A stretch of DNA of 11,613 nt from an uncultured Porphyromonadaceae bacterium (lineage in GTDB: Bacteria; Bacteroidota; Bacteroidia; Bacteroidales; Paludibacteraceae): assembly GCA_937898265.1 (NCBI GenBank), contig CALEJM010000110.1, positions 1-11,613 on the forward strand, given 5' to 3'. Of this stretch, positions 3,000 through 11,613 are shown in pieces; positions within the stretch are counted from its first letter, which is position 1, and each line of letters begins with the position of its first letter. The translations under genes and the position numbers were made by a program. The notes under the pieces are model-generated. The model ran no database searches and was not told where the DNA came from. It was given only the letters and a program-made list of their open reading frames with translations.

Positions 3000-4010
3000 A
3001 TGAACAAACTGCTCGTCATACGATTTTCCGCCCTCGGCGATGTGGCCATGTCGATACCTTTGGTACTGGCCATTGCCCGTCAGTATCCCGACACGGAGAT
3101 TACGTTTCTGAGCAAGAAAAACTGCGCCCCACTCTTTGCCACGATGCCCGAGAATGTCAAGTTTCTCGGCGCCGACTTCAAAGGAGAGCACAACGGGCAT
3201 TTCGGTTGGCAGCGACTGATGCGCGAGTTGAACATCCGTCAGTTTGACGCCGTTGCCGACCTCCACGGATTGTTCCGTTCCCGTCGCATCGCCCTCAATG
3301 CCTGGCTGCGAGGCAAAAAGATTGCCACCATCAACAAAGGGAAACGGGAACGCAAGCAACTCACCCGCAAGAAGGACAAAGTCTTTGCCCCTATCCGTCC
3401 CGTCATCGAACGCTATCAGTCGGTGTTCAAGAAATTGGGCTACGATATTCCATTGGATTTCCCAACCCCAATCTATCCGAAACAGACTCCAACCGAAGGC
3501 ATCGAGATAGGCATTGCCCCTTTCGCCCAACACCAAGGAAAAATCTATCCGCTGGAGAAGATGGAGAAAGTGGTGGAGTTACTTAGTCAGCAACCCAGCA
3601 CCCGCATCTTACTGTTTGGCGGCGGAAGTAAAGAGATGGAAGTCATCAACGACTGGTGCAGCCGCTATCCCAACACCCAATCGGCAAAACAGTTAGGTGG
3701 CATGGAAGGAGAACTAAAACGTATGGCTCAACTGGACGTGATGCTCTCTATGGACTCAGCCAACATGCACTTCGCTGCACTCACCCACACCCCAACGGTC
3801 TCCATCTGGGGGGCCACCCATCCCTATTGCGGCTTCTTGGGTTGGCAGACGAAAGATGCCATCCAACTGCAGACGGAGTTACCCTGCCGTCCTTGCTCCG
3901 CCTATGGCAACAAACCTTGTCTGCGTGGCGACTACGCCTGTCTTCACGCCATTGCACCCGAACAAGTGGTTGAGGCTATCAACCAACTGATTCAACAACG
4001 AAAATCATAG
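3000..4010 (+). CDS. Glycosyltransferase family 9 (heptosyltransferase-like)
   Basis: A 336-residue GT-B-fold transferase of family 9, which in characterised members moves heptose from ADP-heptose to the lipopolysaccharide core at the inner face of the inner membrane. The N-terminal Rossmann half opens with LLVIRFSALGDVAMSIP; D14 is in the position of the catalytic acid of WaaC-type enzymes. The C-terminal half has ILLFGGGSKE, then MDSANMHFAALTHTPTVSIWGATHP, the usual nucleotide-sugar-binding block. A cysteine-rich end (CRPCSAYGNKPCLRGDYACLHAI) is common in family 9. The length is normal. The actual sugar donor and acceptor cannot be read from sequence. The gene lies 6 bases after DUF4254 and 4 bases before DUF4954, in one operon. 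Confidence 0.9.
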   Translation: MNKLLVIRFSALGDVAMSIPLVLAIARQYPDTEITFLSKKNCAPLFATMPENVKFLGADFKGEHNGHFGWQRLMRELNIRQFDAVADLHGLFRSRRIALNAWLRGKKIATINKGKRERKQLTRKKDKVFAPIRPVIERYQSVFKKLGYDIPLDFPTPIYPKQTPTEGIEIGIAPFAQHQGKIYPLEKMEKVVELLSQQPSTRILLFGGGSKEMEVINDWCSRYPNTQSAKQLGGMEGELKRMAQLDVMLSMDSANMHFAALTHTPTVSIWGATHPYCGFLGWQTKDAIQLQTELPCRPCSAYGNKPCLRGDYACLHAIAPEQVVEAINQLIQQRKS

Positions 4011-4014
4011 TCTC

Positions 4015-5988
4015 ATGCGAATCGATACCTACAGACATCTCAGTACACAAGAGATTGCAACGTTAGAGCAACAACACTGTAAAGCCTCCGACTGGAATCT
4101 TATTCAGGTGAAAGACAGTTTTGACGTTACACGCCTGGAAAGCGTGACTCTTATCGGTTCCAACACCATCGGCAACTTCTCCGATTCAACAACCACTTCG
4201 GAAGGACTCGTTCTCCCCAACGGCATCTACCATGCCACGTTGCAAAACTGTGTTGTTGACGACGAAGTACTCATCTATAATATCGAACGCGCCATCGTCA
4301 ACAGTCATATCCAACACCACGCCGTTGTGCTCAACTGCGAGAGCATAGCTTGCGTAGGTCAAAGTTCTTTTGGCTGTGGCACAACGGTCTCTGTGCTCAA
4401 CGAAACTGGTGGCCGCGAAGTAAAGCTCTGTCCGGAGCTCACGGCTCAGGTGGCTTATCTCCTTGCGTTCTATCGCAACAACGAACCACTTGTCCAAGCC
4501 CTCAACCGAGCCATCGACGAACAGACCAAACTCCACACATCAGATTTTCTTACGATTGGCGAACACGCCACGGTTGTAGGTTGCAAAGAGATACGCAACG
4601 TCAACATCGGTCCTTACGCCAACATCCATAACGCCACACGACTTCAAAACGGCACCATCGTCTCCGACCAAAGTTTTCCCGCCGAGGTGGGCGACAACGT
4701 GATTGCCAAAGACTTCATCACCCTTTGGGGAAGCCAAATCACCGAAGGAGCTCTTTTGGAACGCACCTTCGTTGGCGAAGGCAGCATCGTAGGCAAACAG
4801 TTCTCCGCTGCCGAATCGCTCATCTTTGCCAACTGCCAACTCTTCCATGGTGAATCGTGTGCCATCATTGCAGGTCCGTTCACCGTCAGTCACCACAAAT
4901 CAACACTCCTCATCGGTGGCTACTACTCCTTCTTCAACGCTGGCAGCGGAAGCAACCAAAGCAATCACATGTATCGCCTCGGCGCTTCACATCAAGGCAT
5001 CTGCGAGCGTGGCGTCAAGACCACCAGCGACTCCTACCTCCTTTGGCCAGCCCGTTTTGGTGCTTTCTCGTTGGTAAAGGGTCGTCATCAGAAACATAGC
5101 AACACAGAAAACTACCCATTCAGCTATCTCATTGAGAGCAACGGTAGTTACTCCATAAAATTAGGCGCAGCCCTTCAGTCGGCAGGTGCCTTACGCGATG
5201 AGCGAAAATGGCAGAAGCGCGACCTCCGCAAACCACTCCATCAGCACGACATCATCAACTTCGAGATGCTCTCGCCATACACCGTCGGCAAGATGTGTAA
5301 GTCGCTGTTGACGCTTCGTCAGTTAGACCAAATGCTTGGCAACAACGAATCAACCAACTTCGACATCAACGGTTACGCCATCACCCCACGTCATCTGCAA
5401 ACGGGCATCACGCTCTATCAGCAAGCCATCAGTCGTTTCCTCACAACAGCTTTGATGAAACGTCTGAAAGGCAAATCATTCTCCAATCAGCAGACTTTGA
5501 ACTCTCTGCTTCAAACCTCAACAGAAGGAAAAGCGCAAGAGTGGATTGACGTGTTGGGCATGACGACAACCAAAGAAGCGATTCAGACGCTTTGTGAGCA
5601 TATCGTCAAAGAACAACTCTCCCTCAACGACATCAATCGCGAGTTTACCCAACTCAACGCACGCCATGACGAGATGGTCTGGGAGTTTGCTGCCACGCTG
5701 CTCCACTCTACCAACAAAGAAGATCTCATCGCCTTGCTGTCGGACTACCCAGCTGTCTGCGAGCAACATCTTACTGCCGTTGAACACGACGTGCGTAAGG
5801 AGTTTGCCGAAAACATGCAGGTGGGCTACGGCATCGACGGCAACCACACGACAACACAAGAGGATTTCACCGCTGTTCACGGCACTGCCGCCAACGAGCC
5901 ATTCCTCCAAGACTACAAGACCGAATTGTTTGCAACCATCAACGATTCCCAACAACTGCTTCAACAACTACAATCTTTAGAATCATGA
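4015..5988 (+). CDS. DUF4954 family protein with beta-helix (hexapeptide-like) repeats
   Basis: A 657-residue protein matching the DUF4954 family of Bacteroidetes and spirochaetes. Residues of about 45-135 and 180-310 show the stepped short repeats of a left-handed beta-helix (for example HATVVGCKEIRNVNIGPYANIHNATRLQNGTIV), as in nucleotidyl- and acyltransferases acting on sugars. A conserved block follows with GGYYSFFNAGSGSNQSNHMYRLG and LLWPARFGAFSLVKGRH. The last 250 residues are mainly helical. There is no signal peptide, so it is cytoplasmic. The catalytic activity is undetermined; a sugar-nucleotide or acyl-transfer role is inferred from the fold and from the neighbouring glycosyltransferase. 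Its TGA stop overlaps the ATG of recF (ATGA, 5985-5988), implying translational coupling. Confidence 0.88.
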   Translation: MRIDTYRHLSTQEIATLEQQHCKASDWNLIQVKDSFDVTRLESVTLIGSNTIGNFSDSTTTSEGLVLPNGIYHATLQNCVVDDEVLIYNIERAIVNSHIQHHAVVLNCESIACVGQSSFGCGTTVSVLNETGGREVKLCPELTAQVAYLLAFYRNNEPLVQALNRAIDEQTKLHTSDFLTIGEHATVVGCKEIRNVNIGPYANIHNATRLQNGTIVSDQSFPAEVGDNVIAKDFITLWGSQITEGALLERTFVGEGSIVGKQFSAAESLIFANCQLFHGESCAIIAGPFTVSHHKSTLLIGGYYSFFNAGSGSNQSNHMYRLGASHQGICERGVKTTSDSYLLWPARFGAFSLVKGRHQKHSNTENYPFSYLIESNGSYSIKLGAALQSAGALRDERKWQKRDLRKPLHQHDIINFEMLSPYTVGKMCKSLLTLRQLDQMLGNNESTNFDINGYAITPRHLQTGITLYQQAISRFLTTALMKRLKGKSFSNQQTLNSLLQTSTEGKAQEWIDVLGMTTTKEAIQTLCEHIVKEQLSLNDINREFTQLNARHDEMVWEFAATLLHSTNKEDLIALLSDYPAVCEQHLTAVEHDVRKEFAENMQVGYGIDGNHTTTQEDFTAVHGTAANEPFLQDYKTELFATINDSQQLLQQLQSLES

Positions 5989-7088
5989 ATCTGACGTTGC
6001 AACAACTCACTCTGCTCAACTATCGCAACATCGCCGAATGTACGATAATCTTTTCCGACAAGATTAACTGTTTTGTTGGCAACAACGGCATGGGCAAGAC
6101 CAACCTCATCGACGCCATCTATCATCTCTCGTTCTGCAAGAGTCGTCTCAACCCGATTGACGCACAGAACATACGTCATGGCAATGAGGTGTTCATGATT
6201 CAAGGCGAATATCTCCGCGGTGAGCAGATTGAGGTCATCAACTGTGGTGTAAAGCCTCGTGTGAAGAAGCAGTTCTCACGCAACAAGAAACGCTACCCTC
6301 GCATGGCAGACCACATCGGATTCCTGCCGTTGGTTATCATCTCTCCTGCCGACGAAGCACTCATCAAAGACGGCAGCGAGGAACGAAGGAAATTCCTTGA
6401 CAGCGCCATCTCGCAATACGATGCCAACTACCTCGCATCGCTCACAGCCTACAACACTGCCCTCTCCAACCGCAACGCACTGATGAAGGAAGAGGTGGAA
6501 CCTGACTCCACTGTTTTAGAGATCATCGAGATGCAGATGGAGCAAGCAGCCAACTATATCTATGCCCGTCGACGTGAGTTCATCGAGAAGTTCACTCCGC
6601 TGTTTGAGAAATACTACCAACTGATTTCACAGAGCACCGAGGAGGTGACACTCAACTATGTCTCACACCTCGCCAAGCCTGTCTCGCTCTCCGAGCAGTT
6701 GAAAGAGGTCTATCTTCGCGACCGTATCCTGGGCTACACCACTCGAGGCAGTCATAAAGATGACATCGAAATCTATATCAACAGTCACCCCATCAAACAC
6801 ACCGCTTCACAAGGACAAAACAAAAGCACCTTGATAGCGATGAAGATGGCACAGTTCTCACTGCTGAAACAACACTGCTCGGCAACACCGCTATTTCTCC
6901 TCGACGATATTTTCGACAAACTCGATGCCCACCGTGTGGCACACATTATAGATATAGTATCAGGCGACGAGTTCGGACAGATCTTCATCACCGATACCAA
7001 CCGCTTGCATATCGACCAACTACTTCAACATGCCAACTGTCCTGCCCGACTCTTCCTGGTGGACAATGGCGAGATAACTCCGCAATAA
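5985..7088 (+). CDS. recF: DNA replication/repair protein RecF
   Basis: A 367-residue SMC-like ATPase that, with RecO and RecR, helps load RecA at single-strand gaps. Walker A is GNNGMGKTN (residues 32-40), right after the family-typical LTLLNYRNIAECTIIFSDKINCFVG stretch split over residues 8-31. FLPLVIISPADEALIKDGS.ERRKFLD is the conserved RecF central motif. The ABC signature is TASQGQNKST near residue 270, and Walker B with D-loop is PLFLLDDIFDKLD near residue 305-317. The length is normal and all ATPase motifs look intact. It overlaps the DUF4954 stop by 4 bases and is followed after 12 bases by a lipoprotein gene. In many Bacteroidetes recF is followed by a DUF721 (DciA-like) gene; that gene is not here. 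Confidence 0.97.
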   Translation: MNLTLQQLTLLNYRNIAECTIIFSDKINCFVGNNGMGKTNLIDAIYHLSFCKSRLNPIDAQNIRHGNEVFMIQGEYLRGEQIEVINCGVKPRVKKQFSRNKKRYPRMADHIGFLPLVIISPADEALIKDGSEERRKFLDSAISQYDANYLASLTAYNTALSNRNALMKEEVEPDSTVLEIIEMQMEQAANYIYARRREFIEKFTPLFEKYYQLISQSTEEVTLNYVSHLAKPVSLSEQLKEVYLRDRILGYTTRGSHKDDIEIYINSHPIKHTASQGQNKSTLIAMKMAQFSLLKQHCSATPLFLLDDIFDKLDAHRVAHIIDIVSGDEFGQIFITDTNRLHIDQLLQHANCPARLFLVDNGEITPQ

Positions 7089-7100
7089 TACACTTTAGAT

Positions 7101-7676
7101 ATGAGAAACAAACTCTTTTACCTCCTCTGCCTTTTGCTTGCCTTCGTTGCCTGCAAGAAGACAGAAGCAACACAAAACGAATCTGAGGCCAACGCCGAAG
7201 AAGAATGGGTTGAGAACGAAGACCGCGACTACATCGTCAAGGTCGGCGATATGGCTCCCGACTTCACCCTCGTTGACATGGAAGGCAACGAAGTAACACT
7301 CTCCTCACTACGTGGCAAAATCGTCATGCTCCAATTCACAGCCAGTTGGTGTGGCGTATGCCGTAAGGAAATGCCTGAGATTGAGAAACAGATTTGGCAG
7401 AAACACAAAGACAACCCCATGTTTGCCCTCTATGGCGTTGACCGCGAAGACGACTACGAGACCACCGAACTCTTCATCCAAAAAACCGGTATCACCTATC
7501 CTATGCTTCGCGACACCACAGCCACAGCCTTCGATCTCTACGCTATCCACGACGCTGGCATCACCCGCAACGTCATCATCGACACCGACGGACACATCGT
7601 TCTCCTCACCCGTCTCTACAACGAAGATGAGTTCCAAACCATGTGTCATACCATCGACTCTTTGTTAAACAAATAA
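7101..7676 (+). CDS. TlpA/ResA-like thioredoxin-fold lipoprotein
   Basis: A 191-residue protein. The N-terminus (MRNKLFYLLCLLLAFVACKK) is a lipoprotein signal with lipidated C18. Residues 21-45 are a highly acidic linker (TEATQNESEANAEEEWVENE). The rest is a thioredoxin fold of the AhpC-TSA/Redoxin type: VGDMAPDFTLVDMEGNEVTLSSLRGK, then TASWCGVCRKEMPEIE with redox pair C84 and C87, then the cis-proline region (GITRNVIIDTDGHIV). Such proteins act as thiol-disulfide reductases in the periplasm, or may sit on the outer membrane. The substrate is unknown. It follows recF by 12 bases and probably shares its transcript. The isomerase/reductase direction cannot be decided from CGVC alone. Confidence 0.9.
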   Translation: MRNKLFYLLCLLLAFVACKKTEATQNESEANAEEEWVENEDRDYIVKVGDMAPDFTLVDMEGNEVTLSSLRGKIVMLQFTASWCGVCRKEMPEIEKQIWQKHKDNPMFALYGVDREDDYETTELFIQKTGITYPMLRDTTATAFDLYAIHDAGITRNVIIDTDGHIVLLTRLYNEDEFQTMCHTIDSLLNK

Positions 7677-7704
7677 CCCTGCATCGTAATTACATATTTT
7701 TTTG

Positions 7705-7712
7705 TACCTTTG
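7705..7712 (+). promoter_or_regulatory. Probable Bacteroidetes -7 promoter element for the thioesterase gene
   Basis: TACCTTTG fits the TAnnTTTG -7 consensus of Bacteroidetes sigma-ABfr promoters and is preceded by a run of seven Ts. It lies 24 bases before the ATG at 7737. A good -33 TTTG at 19-21 bases upstream is not visible, so only the -7 element is called. Confidence 0.6.
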
Positions 7713-7736
7713 CAGCAAGTAATTATCCTCTGACTT

Positions 7737-8162
7737 ATGGAAGAACTCATTTTCAAACATAGCGTGCCCATTCAGCTTCGCTTCAACGACACCGACAGCC
7801 TTGGACACGTCAACAACTCAGTTTACTTCACCTTCTACGACCTCGGCAAGACATCCTACTTCTCCGCGCTCCGTGGCGAGTTTATGACACCACAGCGTGT
7901 TGATGTTGTGGTTGCACATGCCGAAGTCGACTTCCTCAAACCAGTGTTCCTCGACAGCAACGTCGAAGTGCAGACCACCGTTAGCCACATCGGCAACAAA
8001 AGCTTCACCCTCGTTCAACGCATTATCGACGTGGAGCACAACGACGTGAAATGCATCTGCAAAACCATCATGGTAGGCTTTGACTACAAAAACAACGTCA
8101 CCATCCCTATCACCGACGAATGGCGTCAGATGATTGAGCAGTTCGAAGGACGCAAATTCTAA
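7737..8162 (+). CDS. Acyl-CoA thioesterase, hotdog fold (4HBT/YbgC-like)
   Basis: A 141-residue single hotdog-fold domain. The N-terminal motif RFNDTDSLGHVNNSVYFTFYDLGKTSYF (residues 15-42) is the catalytic signature of the 4-hydroxybenzoyl-CoA thioesterase family. By alignment, D20 occupies the position of the catalytic Asp17 of the Pseudomonas enzyme. VVVAHAEVDFLKPVFLDSNVEV and SFTLVQRI follow as the central strands. The enzyme presumably hydrolyses acyl-CoA or acyl-ACP thioesters in the cytoplasm as a homomultimer. The substrate cannot be inferred. It has its own promoter element and a 60-base gap from the lipoprotein gene, so it is a new transcription unit, possibly with the aquaporin gene 44 bases downstream. 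Confidence 0.92.
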   Translation: MEELIFKHSVPIQLRFNDTDSLGHVNNSVYFTFYDLGKTSYFSALRGEFMTPQRVDVVVAHAEVDFLKPVFLDSNVEVQTTVSHIGNKSFTLVQRIIDVEHNDVKCICKTIMVGFDYKNNVTIPITDEWRQMIEQFEGRKF

Positions 8163-8206
8163 CACTCCTCAGACAATCGTTTTATAAACCCTTAATTTTT
8201 ATAACA

Positions 8207-8908
8207 ATGAAACTTACTAACAAAATGTTTGCAGAATGTCTCGGCACATTCTGGCTCGTTTTAGGTGGTTGCGGAACCGCATTGTTCGGTCACGTAGGCT
8301 TCCTCGGCGTATCATTGGCATTCGGTCTCACCGTAGTGGCTATGGCTTATGGCATCGGTCACATCTCAGGTGCACACCTCAACCCAGCAGTATCATTCGG
8401 TTGCTTCGTCAACGGTCGCATGTCTGTAACAGAGATGTTGGCTTACTGGGCAGCTCAAATTGTTGGTGCTATCATCGCAGCTGGCGTATTGTTTGCCATC
8501 GTAAAAACAGCAGGCATGGAAGTTGGCACATTCGCTGCCAACGGTTGGGGCGACTTCTTCAACGACGCTGACGTAGCTGGCGGTTATCTCCGTACCAACG
8601 CTTGCGGTGCATTCATCGTTGAGGCTGTACTCACCTTCATCTTCTTGTTGGTAATCCTCGGCTCAACCGACGAACGCGCCAACAACAAATTCGCAGGTCT
8701 TGCCATCGGTCTCTGCCTCACACTCATCCACCTCATCAGCATCCCTTTGACCAACACCAGCGTCAACCCAGCCCGTTCAATCTCACAAGCCATCTTCTCT
8801 GAGAACGCATTGGCATTGCCACAACTCTGGTTGTTCATCGTTGCTCCATTGGTAGGTGCTTGCCTCGCAGGCTTGGTTTACAAACTCCTCTCTTGCGAGA
8901 AGAAATAA
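8207..8908 (+). CDS. aqpZ: Aquaporin Z family water channel
   Basis: A 233-residue member of the major intrinsic protein family, with six membrane helices in the inner membrane. Both half-helix motifs are present: HLNPAVS (NPA at 59-61) and TSVNPARS (NPA at 187-189). By alignment the selectivity filter is F39, H175, T184 and R190, the combination of water-selective AqpZ rather than glycerol facilitators. FAECLGTFWLVLGGCGTALF and FGLTVVAMAYGIGHISGAH are typical first- and second-helix sequences. The insert at residues 104-130 (MEVGTFAANGWGDFFNDADVAGG) is the extracellular loop C region. The start is ATG at 8207 after an AT-rich leader. A strong terminator follows 50 bases after the stop. Expression may come from the thioesterase promoter or a local one that is not recognisable. 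Confidence 0.95.
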   Translation: MKLTNKMFAECLGTFWLVLGGCGTALFGHVGFLGVSLAFGLTVVAMAYGIGHISGAHLNPAVSFGCFVNGRMSVTEMLAYWAAQIVGAIIAAGVLFAIVKTAGMEVGTFAANGWGDFFNDADVAGGYLRTNACGAFIVEAVLTFIFLLVILGSTDERANNKFAGLAIGLCLTLIHLISIPLTNTSVNPARSISQAIFSENALALPQLWLFIVAPLVGACLAGLVYKLLSCEKK

Positions 8909-8958
8909 TCCCGTCACATCCTGAGGAACGAATCATTTGATTCCTCACCTCACAACAT

Positions 8959-8993
8959 AGCCCGACAGCATGAAACTGTCGGGCTTTTCTTTT
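8959..8993 (+). terminator. Rho-independent terminator after aqpZ
   Basis: AGCCCGACAG (8959-8968) pairs perfectly with CTGTCGGGCT (8976-8985), a 10-bp stem with loop CATGAAA, followed by TTTCTTTT. It closes the conserved part of the window; everything after it differs in base composition. Confidence 0.9.
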
Positions 8994-9042
8994 CCCCACA
9001 AAGCATTCTCAAGAATAGTTCACTAAACCTTAGTTGTTAAAC

Positions 9043-9073
9043 TTGGTCAAATCAATACATTATAGTAACTTTG
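9043..9073 (+). promoter_or_regulatory. Probable Bacteroidetes promoter for the 9090 gene
   Basis: TAACTTTG at 9066-9073 matches TAnnTTTG. TTG at 9043-9045 lies 20 bases upstream, a suitable place for the -33 element. Transcription would start about 10 bases before the ATG at 9090, giving a very short leader. Confidence 0.6.
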
Positions 9074-9089
9074 CAAAAAACAACAAACT

Positions 9090-9722
9090 ATGGATAGAAA
9101 AATCATATTTATCGTTTTGATGCTCATCTTGACTTTGACCTTTAATAAGGCTGAAGCGCAAAGAATTATTGTAAGAATTCTGGATAGCACCTACATACCT
9201 TCAATTGTAAAAGAAAAGTCCATTATAAACGAAGTTGATTGGAAAGCAGAGTTACAGAAAGTGGATAACGATAAGGACCGTTTATGTTTTCAATGCATCG
9301 TCAAAGAAAACAACAGAAAGAATCGGGTCTATCTAACCTGTGACAATCCAGAATTCAGAAACTACCTTGCTGCTTTCGTCTTTGAAAATTTTGAGCAATC
9401 ATTTCCAGGAAAGAAAGGGATAAGTCGTCAGTTATCGGAAGCCTATACATTTTATTTCCTTTCAAATGCAGAACGGGATGTGTTTGTCCGTTTTTTGGAG
9501 CAACATCCATTACAATTTGAAGATATAAGTATTCTGGGACCCAGCGTTTCCATACCCGCATCATCAAATTTGACATTTAATGACACATATCAAAATGTGC
9601 AAACATATTTGGACTATATCAAATTTCCAGAGGCTTATTCATTTGTAAAAGAAAAAGAAAAGTCTAATCAGTTTGAGATAGTAAATGTTGGTATCCAATC
9701 AGTCAAGCCAACGGCACACTGA
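9090..9722 (+). CDS. Secreted protein; probable N-terminal remnant of a subtilisin-like (S8) protease
   Basis: A 210-residue ORF with a signal peptide (MDRKIIFIVLMLILTLTFNKAEA, cleaved before QR). Residues 25-150 resemble no motif I can name and would fit a prodomain. Residues of about 160-203 (FNDTYQNVQTYLDYIKFPEAYSFV, then FEIVNVGI) read like the entry to the catalytic domain of Bacteroidetes subtilases, where N-D-x-Y, an I-x-x-P-E-A segment and a V-x-V-x-I-I-D strand come in that order. The ORF ends just before the expected catalytic Asp. It ends in SVKPTAH with a TGA, while an apparently type IX secretion-like tail continues in another frame (9677-9817). It is AT-richer and uses AGA/ATA/AAA codons more than its upstream neighbours, suggesting transfer. 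The start and signal peptide are solid. The protease origin is inference; it could also be an unrelated secreted protein. Confidence 0.6.
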   Translation: MDRKIIFIVLMLILTLTFNKAEAQRIIVRILDSTYIPSIVKEKSIINEVDWKAELQKVDNDKDRLCFQCIVKENNRKNRVYLTCDNPEFRNYLAAFVFENFEQSFPGKKGISRQLSEAYTFYFLSNAERDVFVRFLEQHPLQFEDISILGPSVSIPASSNLTFNDTYQNVQTYLDYIKFPEAYSFVKEKEKSNQFEIVNVGIQSVKPTAH

Positions 9723-9817
9723 CCATTTCCGTGGACAATATGCCTAAAGGTGTCTACTATGTAACGCAGAATGTAGAAGGCACGGTTGCTGATACGAAAT
9801 CGCTGATAGTTCAATAA
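9677..9817 (+). pseudogene. Out-of-frame C-terminal tail, type IX secretion sorting-domain-like
   Basis: The frame one base behind the 9090 ORF is open from 9677 to the TAA at 9815-9817 without a start of its own. From 9707 it encodes a segment starting ANGTLTISVDNMPKGVYYV, continuing to VADTKSLIVQ. An L-x-I-S-x-x-x-x-P-x-G-V-Y-x-V strand followed by a K-x-L-I-V end is the pattern of the last part of type A type IX secretion (Por_Secre_tail) domains. Base composition here is closer to the upstream genes than the AT-rich ORF it abuts. The simplest reading is that an internal deletion joined a 5' part to this 3' end and changed the frame. A plain one-base frameshift in a shorter gene is the alternative. 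Confidence 0.5.
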
Positions 9818-9884: not shown

Positions 9885-10232
9885 TGCTTTATTCGGATTA
9901 TGGCACAGTACATCAGCCGAAGCAAATCAACCCTCACAAACCCTGACCTACATAGCTTTTCGCAAAAATTGTCGGAGACCATGCAAGGCTTGCACGATGT
10001 CGCTTGCAGAAAAGGACCTGTCATGAAAAACAAAAACCGAGATCACAAGAGATCACAGTTGAAAGTCGTGATTCCCTGATGATCAATGATTTCTCATTAC
10101 AATTTCTACATTTACACGTAGCACCGGAAAGAATTTCTTTATCGTAATCTCTTCACTCCAATTTCTTGCGCAAGCAATACCCCATTCCACAACCGAAACA
10201 CTCTTTTTGCCAAGTGTACGCGAACAAAAACT
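9885..10232. other. Intergenic stretch without recognisable gene
   Basis: No credible coding sequence was found. A 71-codon frame (9864-10079) begins with a TTG inside the hairpin and has no recognisable motif. The only structure seen is one copy of a 22-bp direct repeat at 10037-10058, followed at 10068-10084 by a partly complementary stretch (GTGATTCC...GATGATC). Confidence 0.6.
10037..10058 (+). repeat. 22-bp direct repeat, left copy
   Basis: Two head-to-tail near-identical 10-mers (GAGATCACAA, GAGATCACAG) preceded by CC. The right copy at 10603-10624 has the same layout with GAAATC in place of GAGATC in both halves, so 20 of 22 bases match. Similarity extends weakly upstream (TGAAAAACAAAAA versus TGAACAAAAAGACC). 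The two copies bracket the 42-bp array. Confidence 0.75.
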
Positions 10233-10520
10233 GTCGTGCACAGAGTTTGTGCAAGGTGACACAAACATAAAACTCTAATACATGTTAAAAAGGACGATTG
10301 ACAGTTAATGCATGCACAACTTCCCAAACTTTGTGCGAGTTGACACAGACGCATGTAAGTCGTGCACAGACTTTGTGCGAGGTAGCACAAACCCATGTAA
10401 GTCGTGCACGGACTTTGTGCGAGTTGACACAAACGCATGTAAGTCGTGCACGGACTTTGTGCGAGGTAGCACAAACCCATGTAAGTCGTGCACGAACTTT
10501 GTGCGAGGTAGCACAAAAGG
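10233..10520. repeat. 42-bp tandem repeat array with a hairpin in each good unit
   Basis: Units begin every 42 bases at 10233, 10275 (badly decayed), 10317 (diverged first 11 bases), 10359, 10401, 10443 and 10485 (incomplete). A good unit starts GTCGTGCAC, has TTTGTGC at unit positions 14-20, then a 6-base loop, then GCACAAA at 27-33, and ends in CATGTAA. Units at 10359 and 10443 differ at one base only. Two loop types alternate: GAGGTA with a 7-bp stem (10359, 10443, 10485), and a type with GTTGACAC and a 6-bp stem (10317, 10401, with 10233 similar). There are no unique spacers, so it is not a CRISPR. Since 42 is divisible by three, several frames on both strands stay open, and none looks like a protein. 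The function is unknown: an RNA with serial hairpins, a protein-binding site array, or a BIME/REP-like element are all possible. Confidence 0.93.
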
Positions 10521-10532
10521 TATGCACCTCGC
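10503..10532. repeat. Closing inverted repeat at the 3' edge of the array
   Basis: In the last, incomplete unit, GCGAGGT (10503-10509) can pair with ACCTCGC (10526-10532) just outside the array. This pairing competes with the usual TTTGTGC/GCACAAA hairpin and occurs only at this end. Confidence 0.5.
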
Positions 10533-10602
10533 CTCTCTCCCACGGCCACTTGACTAAGTTTTCTTGAAGATTGATTGTGACTCCTGAACAAAAAGACCAA
10601 AG

Positions 10603-10624
10603 CCGAAATCACAAGAAATCACAG
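10603..10624 (+). repeat. 22-bp direct repeat, right copy
   Basis: Two 10-mers, GAAATCACAA and GAAATCACAG, preceded by CC; 20 of 22 bases match the left copy at 10037-10058, in the same orientation. Its first 11 bases are also exactly complementary to 10670-10680. Confidence 0.75.
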
Positions 10625-10695
10625 CAGAAACCGTAAATCTGCAATGATGTTTCAATCCTCATGACGAACTGTGATTTCGGGTTTTCTTGTTTTTT
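10615..10695 (+). terminator. Stem-loop with T-rich tail between the array and hsdM
   Basis: GAAATCACAG (10615-10624) pairs with CTGTGATTTC (10669-10678), enclosing a small GCAGA/TCTGC hairpin (10624-10642). The right arm is followed by GGGTTTTCTTGTTTTTT. It could end a transcript coming from the array before hsdM. The long loop makes this weaker than the other two terminators. The outer bases can alternatively pair as CCGAAATCACA (10603-10613) with TGTGATTTCGG (10670-10680). Confidence 0.45.
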
Positions 10696-10759
10696 GCTTC
10701 TTAATCTCCGTCCAGCCAAAATAGTTCCCTTTTTCGTTCCCGTTCCCACCGAAAATATG

Positions 10760-10767
10760 TATATTTG
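10760..10767 (+). promoter_or_regulatory. Probable -7 promoter element for hsdM
   Basis: TATATTTG matches TAnnTTTG, 53 bases before the hsdM ATG. No convincing TTTG is found 19-21 bases upstream. AAGGA at 10812-10816, 4 bases before the ATG, is an unusually clear Shine-Dalgarno site for this group and supports the start at 10821. Confidence 0.55.
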
Positions 10768-10820
10768 TGCCGTAATTTAGGATTATTCTATACATCAGCA
10801 AAAACAAACATAAGGACATC

Positions 10821-11613
10821 ATGACAGACAAGATAAATATCCGCAAACTTGAAGCAGACCTTTGGGAGTCAGCAGATTTACTTCGTGCAGGTTCAAAACT
10901 GACCAGCAGTCAGTATTGTATGCCGGTGTTGGCGTTGCTCTTTCTTCGCTATGCCTACAGCCGTTTCAAGATGGTGGAGGCAGAACTGCTGAAGAACCGA
11001 CCAAGCCGTGGCGGACGAGTCTTACCTGTAGAGCCAAGCGATTTCGCGGCAAAGAGTGCCCTCTATCTGCCTCGTGAGGCACAGTTCGACTATCTTGTCA
11101 ATCTCTCCGACGACCAGCCATTGGGCGAAGCGGTCAATCATGCGATGTCTCTCGTGGAGGAGCAAAGCGAACAACTGACAGGTATCCTACCTAAGACATA
11201 CACGATGTTCAGCGATGAATTGTTGCGTGAACTCCTTCGCATCTTCAACAACAAGACGCTCGACGAGATTGGTGGTGATGTGATTGGTCGTATCTATGAG
11301 TATTTTCTCTCCAAGTTTGCCAAGGCTGTAGCATCAGACGATGGTGTGTTCTTCACCCCAAAGTCTTTGGTCAAGATGCTTGTCAATGTACTGGAACCAG
11401 AACAAGGTGTGATGCTTGCCCCCGCTTGTGGTTCGGGCGGTATGTTCGTTCAGACGGGTGACTTCGTGAATGCAGGAGGCATGAACGCCAACACCCAGAT
11501 GACCTTCTACGGTCAGGAGAAAGTGGAGTACAATGCTCAGCTCTGTTTGATGAACATGGCAGTTCATGGATTGAATGGTCGTATCGTCAGTGGCGATGAA
11601 GCCAATTCATTCT
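10821..11613 (+). CDS. hsdM: Type I restriction-modification system DNA methyltransferase subunit HsdM (3' end outside window)
   Basis: The frame is open from ATG 10821 to the window end (264 codons, no stop). The modification subunit transfers a methyl group from S-adenosylmethionine to adenine and, with HsdS and HsdR, forms the type I complex. The N-terminal HsdM_N helical domain starts INIRKLEADLWESADLLR and contains SSQYCMPVLALLFLRYA. The linker (LDEIGGDVIGRIYEYFLSKFA) leads into the N6-Mtase domain: DDGVFFTPKSLVKMLV, motif I LAPACGSGGMFVQTG (APACGSGG at residues 200-207), then FYGQEKVEYNAQLCLMNMAVHGL. The catalytic NPPF motif would lie beyond the window. The usual Asp before PACGSGG is Ala here (GCC at 11418). 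The hsdS and hsdR genes are expected downstream but cannot be seen. Composition returns to about that of the upstream genes. Confidence 0.95.
   Translation, partial: MTDKINIRKLEADLWESADLLRAGSKLTSSQYCMPVLALLFLRYAYSRFKMVEAELLKNRPSRGGRVLPVEPSDFAAKSALYLPREAQFDYLVNLSDDQPLGEAVNHAMSLVEEQSEQLTGILPKTYTMFSDELLRELLRIFNNKTLDEIGGDVIGRIYEYFLSKFAKAVASDDGVFFTPKSLVKMLVNVLEPEQGVMLAPACGSGGMFVQTGDFVNAGGMNANTQMTFYGQEKVEYNAQLCLMNMAVHGLNGRIVSGDEANSF

Follow-up and report, generated by a model that had tools for sequence, protein, structure and literature searches.

A hairpin-bearing 42-bp array upstream of hsdM and a class of intergenic tandem arrays with near-constant unit length in uncultured Paludibacteraceae

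The array and its neighbourhood

The stretch of DNA analysed here (11,613 bp, hereafter the window) carries an aquaporin gene (8207-8908; MIP, Pfam) and, at its right end, the beginning of an hsdM gene. Between the two lie a tandem array of 42-bp units, whose sequence family we call f2, and one unit of a second family, f1. For comparison we refer throughout to G001, a draft Paludibacteraceae MAG from horse feces (Horse_feces161, JAKSNW01). The features of this region are as follows.

9959-10000, + strand: single unit of the second 42-bp family (f1); 9959-9999 matches units of arrays on five G001 contigs (C13, C4, C37, C35, C34) at 98-100% identity
10233-10327, + strand: left composite unit, GTGCAC and a hairpin motif (10246-10265) followed by a diverged, hairpin-less 42-bp unit (10286-10327, by eye)
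10328-10369, + strand: 42-bp unit 1, loop variant GAGTTGA
10370-10411, + strand: 42-bp unit 2, loop variant GAGGTA, full 7-bp stem
10412-10453, + strand: 42-bp unit 3, loop variant GAGTTGA
10454-10495, + strand: 42-bp unit 4, loop variant GAGGTA
10496-10517, + strand: terminal partial unit, stopping at the hairpin
10718-10823, + strand: hsdM promoter segment, resembling the promoters of both G001 HsdM genes (C39, C5)
10821-11613, + strand: hsdM, type I DNA methyltransferase, cut by the window end (Pfam HsdM_N and N6_Mtase)

In the window, TRF reports a period-42 tandem at 10328-10517 (4.5 copies, score 296) and an 84-bp higher-order period over the same array (2.2 copies, score 341), the latter arising from the alternation of the loop variants GAGTTGA and GAGGTA. 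A scan of the window for TTTGTGCRAGNTNRCACARA with two mismatches allowed gave nine matches, of which six are exact hairpin motifs on the + strand, starting at 10246, 10330, 10372, 10414, 10456 and 10498, and three are the same palindromes read on the - strand; 200 dinucleotide-shuffled controls gave no match. Successive motif starts are 84, 42, 42, 42 and 42 bp apart, so that the whole run, 10246-10517, keeps a 42-bp register, and all units stand head-to-tail in a single orientation. With six motifs in register and none in shuffles, the array of hairpin units described in the initial annotation is real, and its start at 10233 is also right, since the 84-bp gap holds one diverged unit. That description and its coordinates are correct. 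GTGCAC precedes five of the six motifs (by eye) and is missing before the motif at 10330, and the stem reaches its full 7 bp (TTTGTGC/GCACAAA) in three of the six units, the innermost pair being lost in the others.

Open reading frames cross the array (for example 10139-10612, - strand, 157 aa), which they can do because 42 is a multiple of three; the existence of sister families with 41-bp units argues against coding as the reason for the array class. A CRISPR array was considered and rejected, as the whole unit repeats, 84-nt copies agreeing with the reference copy at 71-96% identity, and there are no unique spacers.

The window is syntenic with G001 over 3001-9080 (C34:91125-97217) at 83% identity and thus comes from a sister species; the next closest of 60 relatives, G002, matches at 75% over 3.1 kb. 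Beyond the aquaporin gene lies what remains of a longer gene (8955-9800). Window 8955-9694 aligns at 97% identity with the 5' portion of a G001 ORF of 973 aa (C2:53885-54624), and 9692-9800 matches the last codons of that ORF at 89%; the roughly 2.2 kb in between are missing. As the surrounding synteny reaches 83%, much less than 97%, this remnant looks recently exchanged. Three related arms of the AAATCACAAG type, one of them inverted, flank the window array at 10028-10060, 10590-10630 and 10667-10699; the inverted arms 10028-10060 and 10667-10699 have only weak matches in G001, more than 1 kb from any array.

Arrays with units of 40-43 bp in the sister genome and its relatives

Scanning genome contigs for TTTGTGCRAGNTNRCACARA gave six stretches, with multi-copy arrays of this kind in one assembly, G001. 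Arrays of the window family lie at five places there (two on C35 and one each on C29, C11 and C1), units of 42 and 43 bp coexist among them, and the longest opens with the same type of composite unit as window 10233-10327; at three of these arrays the right end likewise stops at the hairpin. The array at C1:78674 is a singleton in our clustering, yet it shows similarity to f4 as well as to the window family, of which it is probably a distant member. One short, weak match each was also obtained in G022 and G040. Matches on viral contigs (the seven of L007-L013) and at L004-L006 proved to be single motifs and not arrays, and were set aside; a search for a plasmid or phage origin gave no match, which counts against one. 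The suggestion that the array belongs to a dispersed repeat family was supported by same-family arrays at five places and by many other arrays with units of 41-43 bp.

These other arrays make up a class with many members and many unit sequences per genome, in mixed gene orientation and with at least one block copied, and their unit length is 40-43 bp almost without exception. In 838 kb of the roughly 1.7 Mb of draft G001 we counted 53 arrays, 51 of which have units in this range, with lengths of 42 (28 arrays), 41 (19), 43 (3), 40 (1), 84 (1) and 124 bp (1). The count admitted periods of 38-46, of which 38-39 and 44-46 did not occur; within the 838 kb, 226 kb had been picked for motif or element matches and two stretches for Y1_Tnp genes. 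TRF detected 28 tandem arrays with periods of at least 10 in a 390-kb sample of G001, made up of 19 contig starts and a single contig end. The period is 41, 42 or 84 in 20 of them, or in 12 of 20 once eight arrays cut by contig ends are removed, and other periods are also present among G001 tandem arrays. The arrays also break the assembly, with 23 of 49 examined G001 contig ends lying inside one.

When units were compared on both strands and in all rotations, with the 124-bp array left out, the 52 G001 consensus units fell into 17 sequence families at a joining threshold of 17, against a top score of 11.5 in 1500 comparisons of shuffled units. Most family pairs score like shuffles, and 9 of 171 reach at least 12 where 2.15 would be expected. 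Similarity between families is therefore slightly above chance, so that some of them are distant kin, and part of the length they share could be due to common descent. By eye, f1 and f2 have a common core, CATGYAAG..TGCACG.

In G002, also a draft assembly, one 41-bp array has 51 matches at about 40 places, many of them at contig ends; this is a lower bound, from 40 scored candidates, with the period checked at two places and the places counted from a list. Aligned with gaps, its unit resembles f1 weakly (score 13). Across 794 kb from 44 relatives, TRF found only two further period-41 arrays of non-coding appearance, in G002 and in G023, besides a G034 repeat of 42 bp (21 bp) that we take as coding; in a further 142 kb of G002 and G023 it found no array of this period. 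TRF misses arrays cut at contig ends, and the roughly 40 places in G002 indicate that such sampling under-counts. A search with 10 of the 17 family consensus units and two scored candidates per genome returned one in 300, a weak negative.

Placement, copying and turnover of the arrays

The arrays are head-to-tail units of tens of base pairs lying between genes, as in intergenic minisatellites, with the qualification that they were masked before gene calling and are "intergenic" partly by construction. Gene calls were longest ORFs and not the output of a trained gene finder. Of 25 G001 arrays with genes on both sides (arrays masked), 14 lie between co-directional, 7 between divergent and 4 between convergent genes, proportions close to those of background gaps (82, 28 and 25, respectively). 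In unmasked calls, 8 of 40 arrays fall inside a longer ORF, which we take to be an ORF opened by the repeat. The class sits beside housekeeping and accessory genes alike: a Pfam scan of 39 of the 78 flanking ORF entries, some of which repeat, found tRNA synthetases (AspRS, HisRS, CysRS), FtsK, SufB, a SpoU methylase, transporters, peptidases and two HsdM, and several flanking ORFs without a Pfam match look lipoprotein-like by eye.

Given the position of the window array, a local role at hsdM had been proposed, and this fared unevenly. An array lies 180-400 bp upstream of the window hsdM and of both G001 HsdM genes, the latter being the two that also carry HsdM_N among the four N6_Mtase matches of that genome. 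We found no DNA-level match to the window hsdM gene in G001. A promoter segment around GAAAATATGTATATTTGTGCC recurs before the window hsdM gene and the hsdM genes of G001 at C5 and C39 (L203, L141), although the three genes differ, and C1:39927 gives a weaker third match to it. However, the arrays at the three loci belong to different families (f2 in the window, f9 at C39, f5/f4 at C5), so that, as a candidate regulatory array of type I restriction operons, the array sequence is not conserved upstream of the three HsdM genes, and HsdM accounts for only 2 of the 39 G001 flanking ORFs scanned. Finding an array at three of three hsdM genes is suggestive of a link, though each array differs, and the position before hsdM is probably incidental. 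A role confined to hsdM was weakened, since arrays stand beside many other genes and the C5 array is part of a dispersed composite.

This composite, which joins f4 and f5 units, occurs at three G001 places (C37, C21 and C5; approximate bounds L091:9503-10731, L137:18567-19585 and L203:4938-6000) and is the most MITE-like part of the class. A tail of about 200 bp is common to all three, and a leader of about 116 bp is found at C37 and C21, with a further copy at C2 that precedes f4-like units and an f9 array. The C5 tail reaches the hsdM promoter, and block copying is therefore the probable origin of the C5 array. Next to each of the three leader copies stands, by eye, a palindrome like those around the C1 Y1_Tnp gene. 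Inverted repeats that would link leader to tail are weak: shuffled sequences do as well in 13 and 10 of 300 cases, and in 12 of 300 for the flanks of the window array. The window array and the C11 array have 39 bp of left flank in common (85%, E 0.002) and no common tail. Together, the composite and this left flank make a mobile history like that of the BrickBuilt element plausible for some arrays.

In a comparison of 86 flanks, the sequence common to arrays of the other families is either short (28-51 bp in f0) or not family-specific. A second long flank is common to arrays of f3, f9 and f11, and a 130-bp promoter-proximal element has an array within 400 bp upstream in 9 of its 24 copies (three f2, four f1, one f6 and one 124-bp array); where one flank or element stands beside several families, the same setting evidently accepts different arrays. 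The 24 copies of the 130-bp element in G001 stretches (L001:5137-5450 and 23 other places) lie upstream of ORFs, many of which look lipoprotein-like by eye and have no Pfam match where scanned, and the element looks like a promoter region common to the members of an expanding gene family.

The aquaporin locus is, on sequence comparison, the clearest case of one place with different arrays. On the 3' side of this gene, the f2 array of the window is preceded by a single f1 unit (9959-10000); in G001 an f1 array runs into the contig end (C34:97725-97898, the syntenic place for the window f1 unit), and G002 carries a 41-bp array of its own (L224:1358-1617). At the syntenic place there is one f1 unit in the window versus about four in G001, which, with one assembly per species, is the sole hint of copy-number variation. 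Conservation of array position between G001 and G002, which would have been expected, was not found as a rule: 10 of 34 G002 array flanks have a homologue in the sampled part of G001, and 8 of these 10 homologies end within 400 bp of the G002 array. For those eight, a G001 array lies within 700 bp in one case and within 2 kb in four, where overall density predicts about one within 2 kb.

Within families, array orientation in G001 follows the 20-kb GC skew (p = 0.0006 by contig-sign permutation over 30 contigs with 46 arrays). The test was run at three thresholds, and at 0.02 and 0.04 gives p = 0.004 and 0.035. The relation to neighbouring gene strands in G001 is weaker (p = 0.05 and 0.30). A link that is strongest with skew at 20 kb and weaker with gene strands is what would be expected if polarity reflects replication. 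In G002, with flanks of mostly 1-2 kb, 16 of 28 arrays agree with skew (p = 0.57). We regard replication polarity of the arrays as a lead.

What may hold the unit length

The initial annotation had offered a serial-hairpin RNA as one reading, which would make the array a small RNA, an attenuator or an mRNA stabiliser. The window array folds better than its shuffles on both strands (z = -2.9 and -3.9), but shuffling also destroys the repetition, and these values are therefore inflated. When consensus units were compared with shuffled units, the mean z was -1.17 and 7 of 19 families fell below -1.64. In f2, 91.8% of stem cells are paired, with the innermost pair broken in 12 of 26 distinct units; across these 26 units none of the seven pairs is changed on both sides, as compensatory change would require, and three never vary. 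None of 4227 Rfam models matches at its gathering score. As the relation to gene strands is also not firm, an RNA role, and with it that part of the annotation, now seems very unlikely.

Hairpins are thus frequent in the class and not defining. The 10.5-bp phasing of A/T-rich steps was not seen either; that harmonic is depleted, which speaks against A-tract curvature as the basis of the arrays, and the harmonics that are raised are the first and sixth (p = 0.008 and 0.003 among 36 tests). With hairpins not universal and phasing absent, unit length is the one feature common to all arrays. We therefore somewhat favour a model in which the window array is a member of a class of fast-evolving intergenic minisatellites, held under a length constraint, in a small group of uncultured Paludibacteraceae. 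Under this model, replication slippage or unequal recombination would lengthen, shorten and homogenise the arrays, blocks would sometimes be copied elsewhere, and an array could be replaced by one of another sequence. Counting against it are the partial kinship of the families, the lack of skew polarity in G002, array positions that mostly differ between G001 and G002, the few such arrays found by TRF in the sampled relatives, and the other periods present in G001. Length stays steady while most family pairs look unrelated, which argues that length itself is constrained, and the ruler might lie in the machinery making the repeats, or in a reader of sites four helical turns apart. Of these, a replication-linked maker is favoured over a dedicated regulator. 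The strongest form of the idea would be a sequence-independent ruler, under which nearly any sequence is made or kept provided that its unit is 41-43 bp (four helical turns) and its orientation to the replication fork is fixed, through a lagging-strand process or a novel DNA-organising protein; we consider this form distinctly doubtful.

A length constraint might be unnecessary if all families descended from one ancestral 42-bp array, as a library of satellites whose sequences were changed by concerted evolution while their length was kept because single-base indels are rare. The resemblance of C1:78674 to both the window family and f4, the slight excess of similarity between families, the f1/f2 core and the weak match between the G002 unit and f1 all point this way. 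Most family pairs nonetheless score no better than shuffles, and the coexistence of 42- and 43-bp units within the window family indicates that length can change, yet none lies outside 40-43 bp within the 38-46 filter. We judge common descent without a ruler to be somewhat doubtful, yet one of the two main alternatives, the other being a mobile repeat. A mobile repeat of the REP/BIME or MITE type, in which leader-array-tail blocks resembling BrickBuilt are spread by a transposase acting in trans, would account for dispersal within the G001 and G002 genomes, for the common leader and tail of the f4-f5 composite with its adjoining Y1_Tnp-type palindrome, and for the left flank common to the window and C11 arrays. 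It is harder to reconcile with the short flanks of other families, the elements that stand behind several families, the weakness of the leader-tail inverted repeats and the weak G001 matches of the window arms, and a transposase acting on the arrays is putative. Two Y1_Tnp genes are present in G001 (L203 on C5 and L204 on C1), each with palindromic repeats of its own and one within a type I restriction operon after hsdM. For these two genes we did not find the flanking by array repeats that a RAYT would show, nor, in the window, the alternating orientation of a BIME. The REP/BIME membership entertained in the initial annotation is therefore not established, one such palindrome adjoining the composite leader notwithstanding. 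On these comparisons both the REP/RAYT and the MITE readings appear weakened, and we judge spread as mobile blocks to be rather doubtful for the class.

The same unit length could instead reflect protein binding at sites four helical turns apart, by a nucleoid organiser, a silencer or a regulator of type I restriction: 42 bp is four turns of 10.5 bp, and all three hsdM genes combine an upstream array with mutually similar promoters. However, unit sequences differ even among these three loci, one of which probably received its array with the dispersed composite, and arrays also stand between convergent genes (4 of 25) and beside FtsK, AspRS, HisRS, CysRS and SufB. Together with the missing 10.5-bp phasing, this makes a multi-site binding array unlikely. 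An hsdM-specific switch and a hairpin RNA are both less likely than the satellite and MITE-like alternatives.

Returning to the favoured minisatellite class under length constraint, parallels exist in both bacteria and eukaryotes. Mycobacterial MIRU/VNTR loci are intergenic tandem repeats with units of 40-100 bp and one kind of repeat; the present arrays are likewise many, intergenic and built of units of tens of base pairs, with copy-number variation expected, but they comprise many families near 42 bp. In eukaryotic satellite DNA, monomer length is conserved while sequence turns over. The arrays resemble it in kept length, sequence turnover and higher-order (84, 126 bp) repeats, and differ in being short (about 2-11 units) and dispersed between bacterial genes.

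The nearest described element that we found is BrickBuilt of Porphyromonas gingivalis, a minisatellite-MITE that has a 23-bp unit, a leader and a tail, and small inverted-repeat ends, is always intergenic and is present in 19 copies in one strain (PMC4596501). Like it, the arrays occur in Bacteroidales, run head-to-tail without spacers, and are dispersed and intergenic, and a leader and a tail also occur in the f4-f5 composite; unlike its single 23-bp unit, theirs is 41-43 bp with many sequences, and leader and tail are found for one composite only (compare PMC4596501). REPs carry a GTAG or CGTC tag and alternate in orientation within BIMEs (PMC2817692, PMC3733652). The arrays are similar in being extragenic, palindrome-bearing, regularly spaced and present in many copies per genome, but their units are direct and tandem, several families have a weak palindrome or none, and the Y1_Tnp genes lie among other palindromes. 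In titles and abstract openings of the open-access literature, we found no report of 41-43-bp arrays in this Paludibacteraceae group.

Tandem repeats are usually explained by their sequence, as a binding motif or a mobile element, or by chance slippage with free unit length. Here, about 17 unit families in one genome lie within a base or two of one length, and a sister species has another sequence at the same length. At a practical level, the arrays break assemblies of this group. If the pattern is true in closed genomes, what sets the length of bacterial repeats would become testable.
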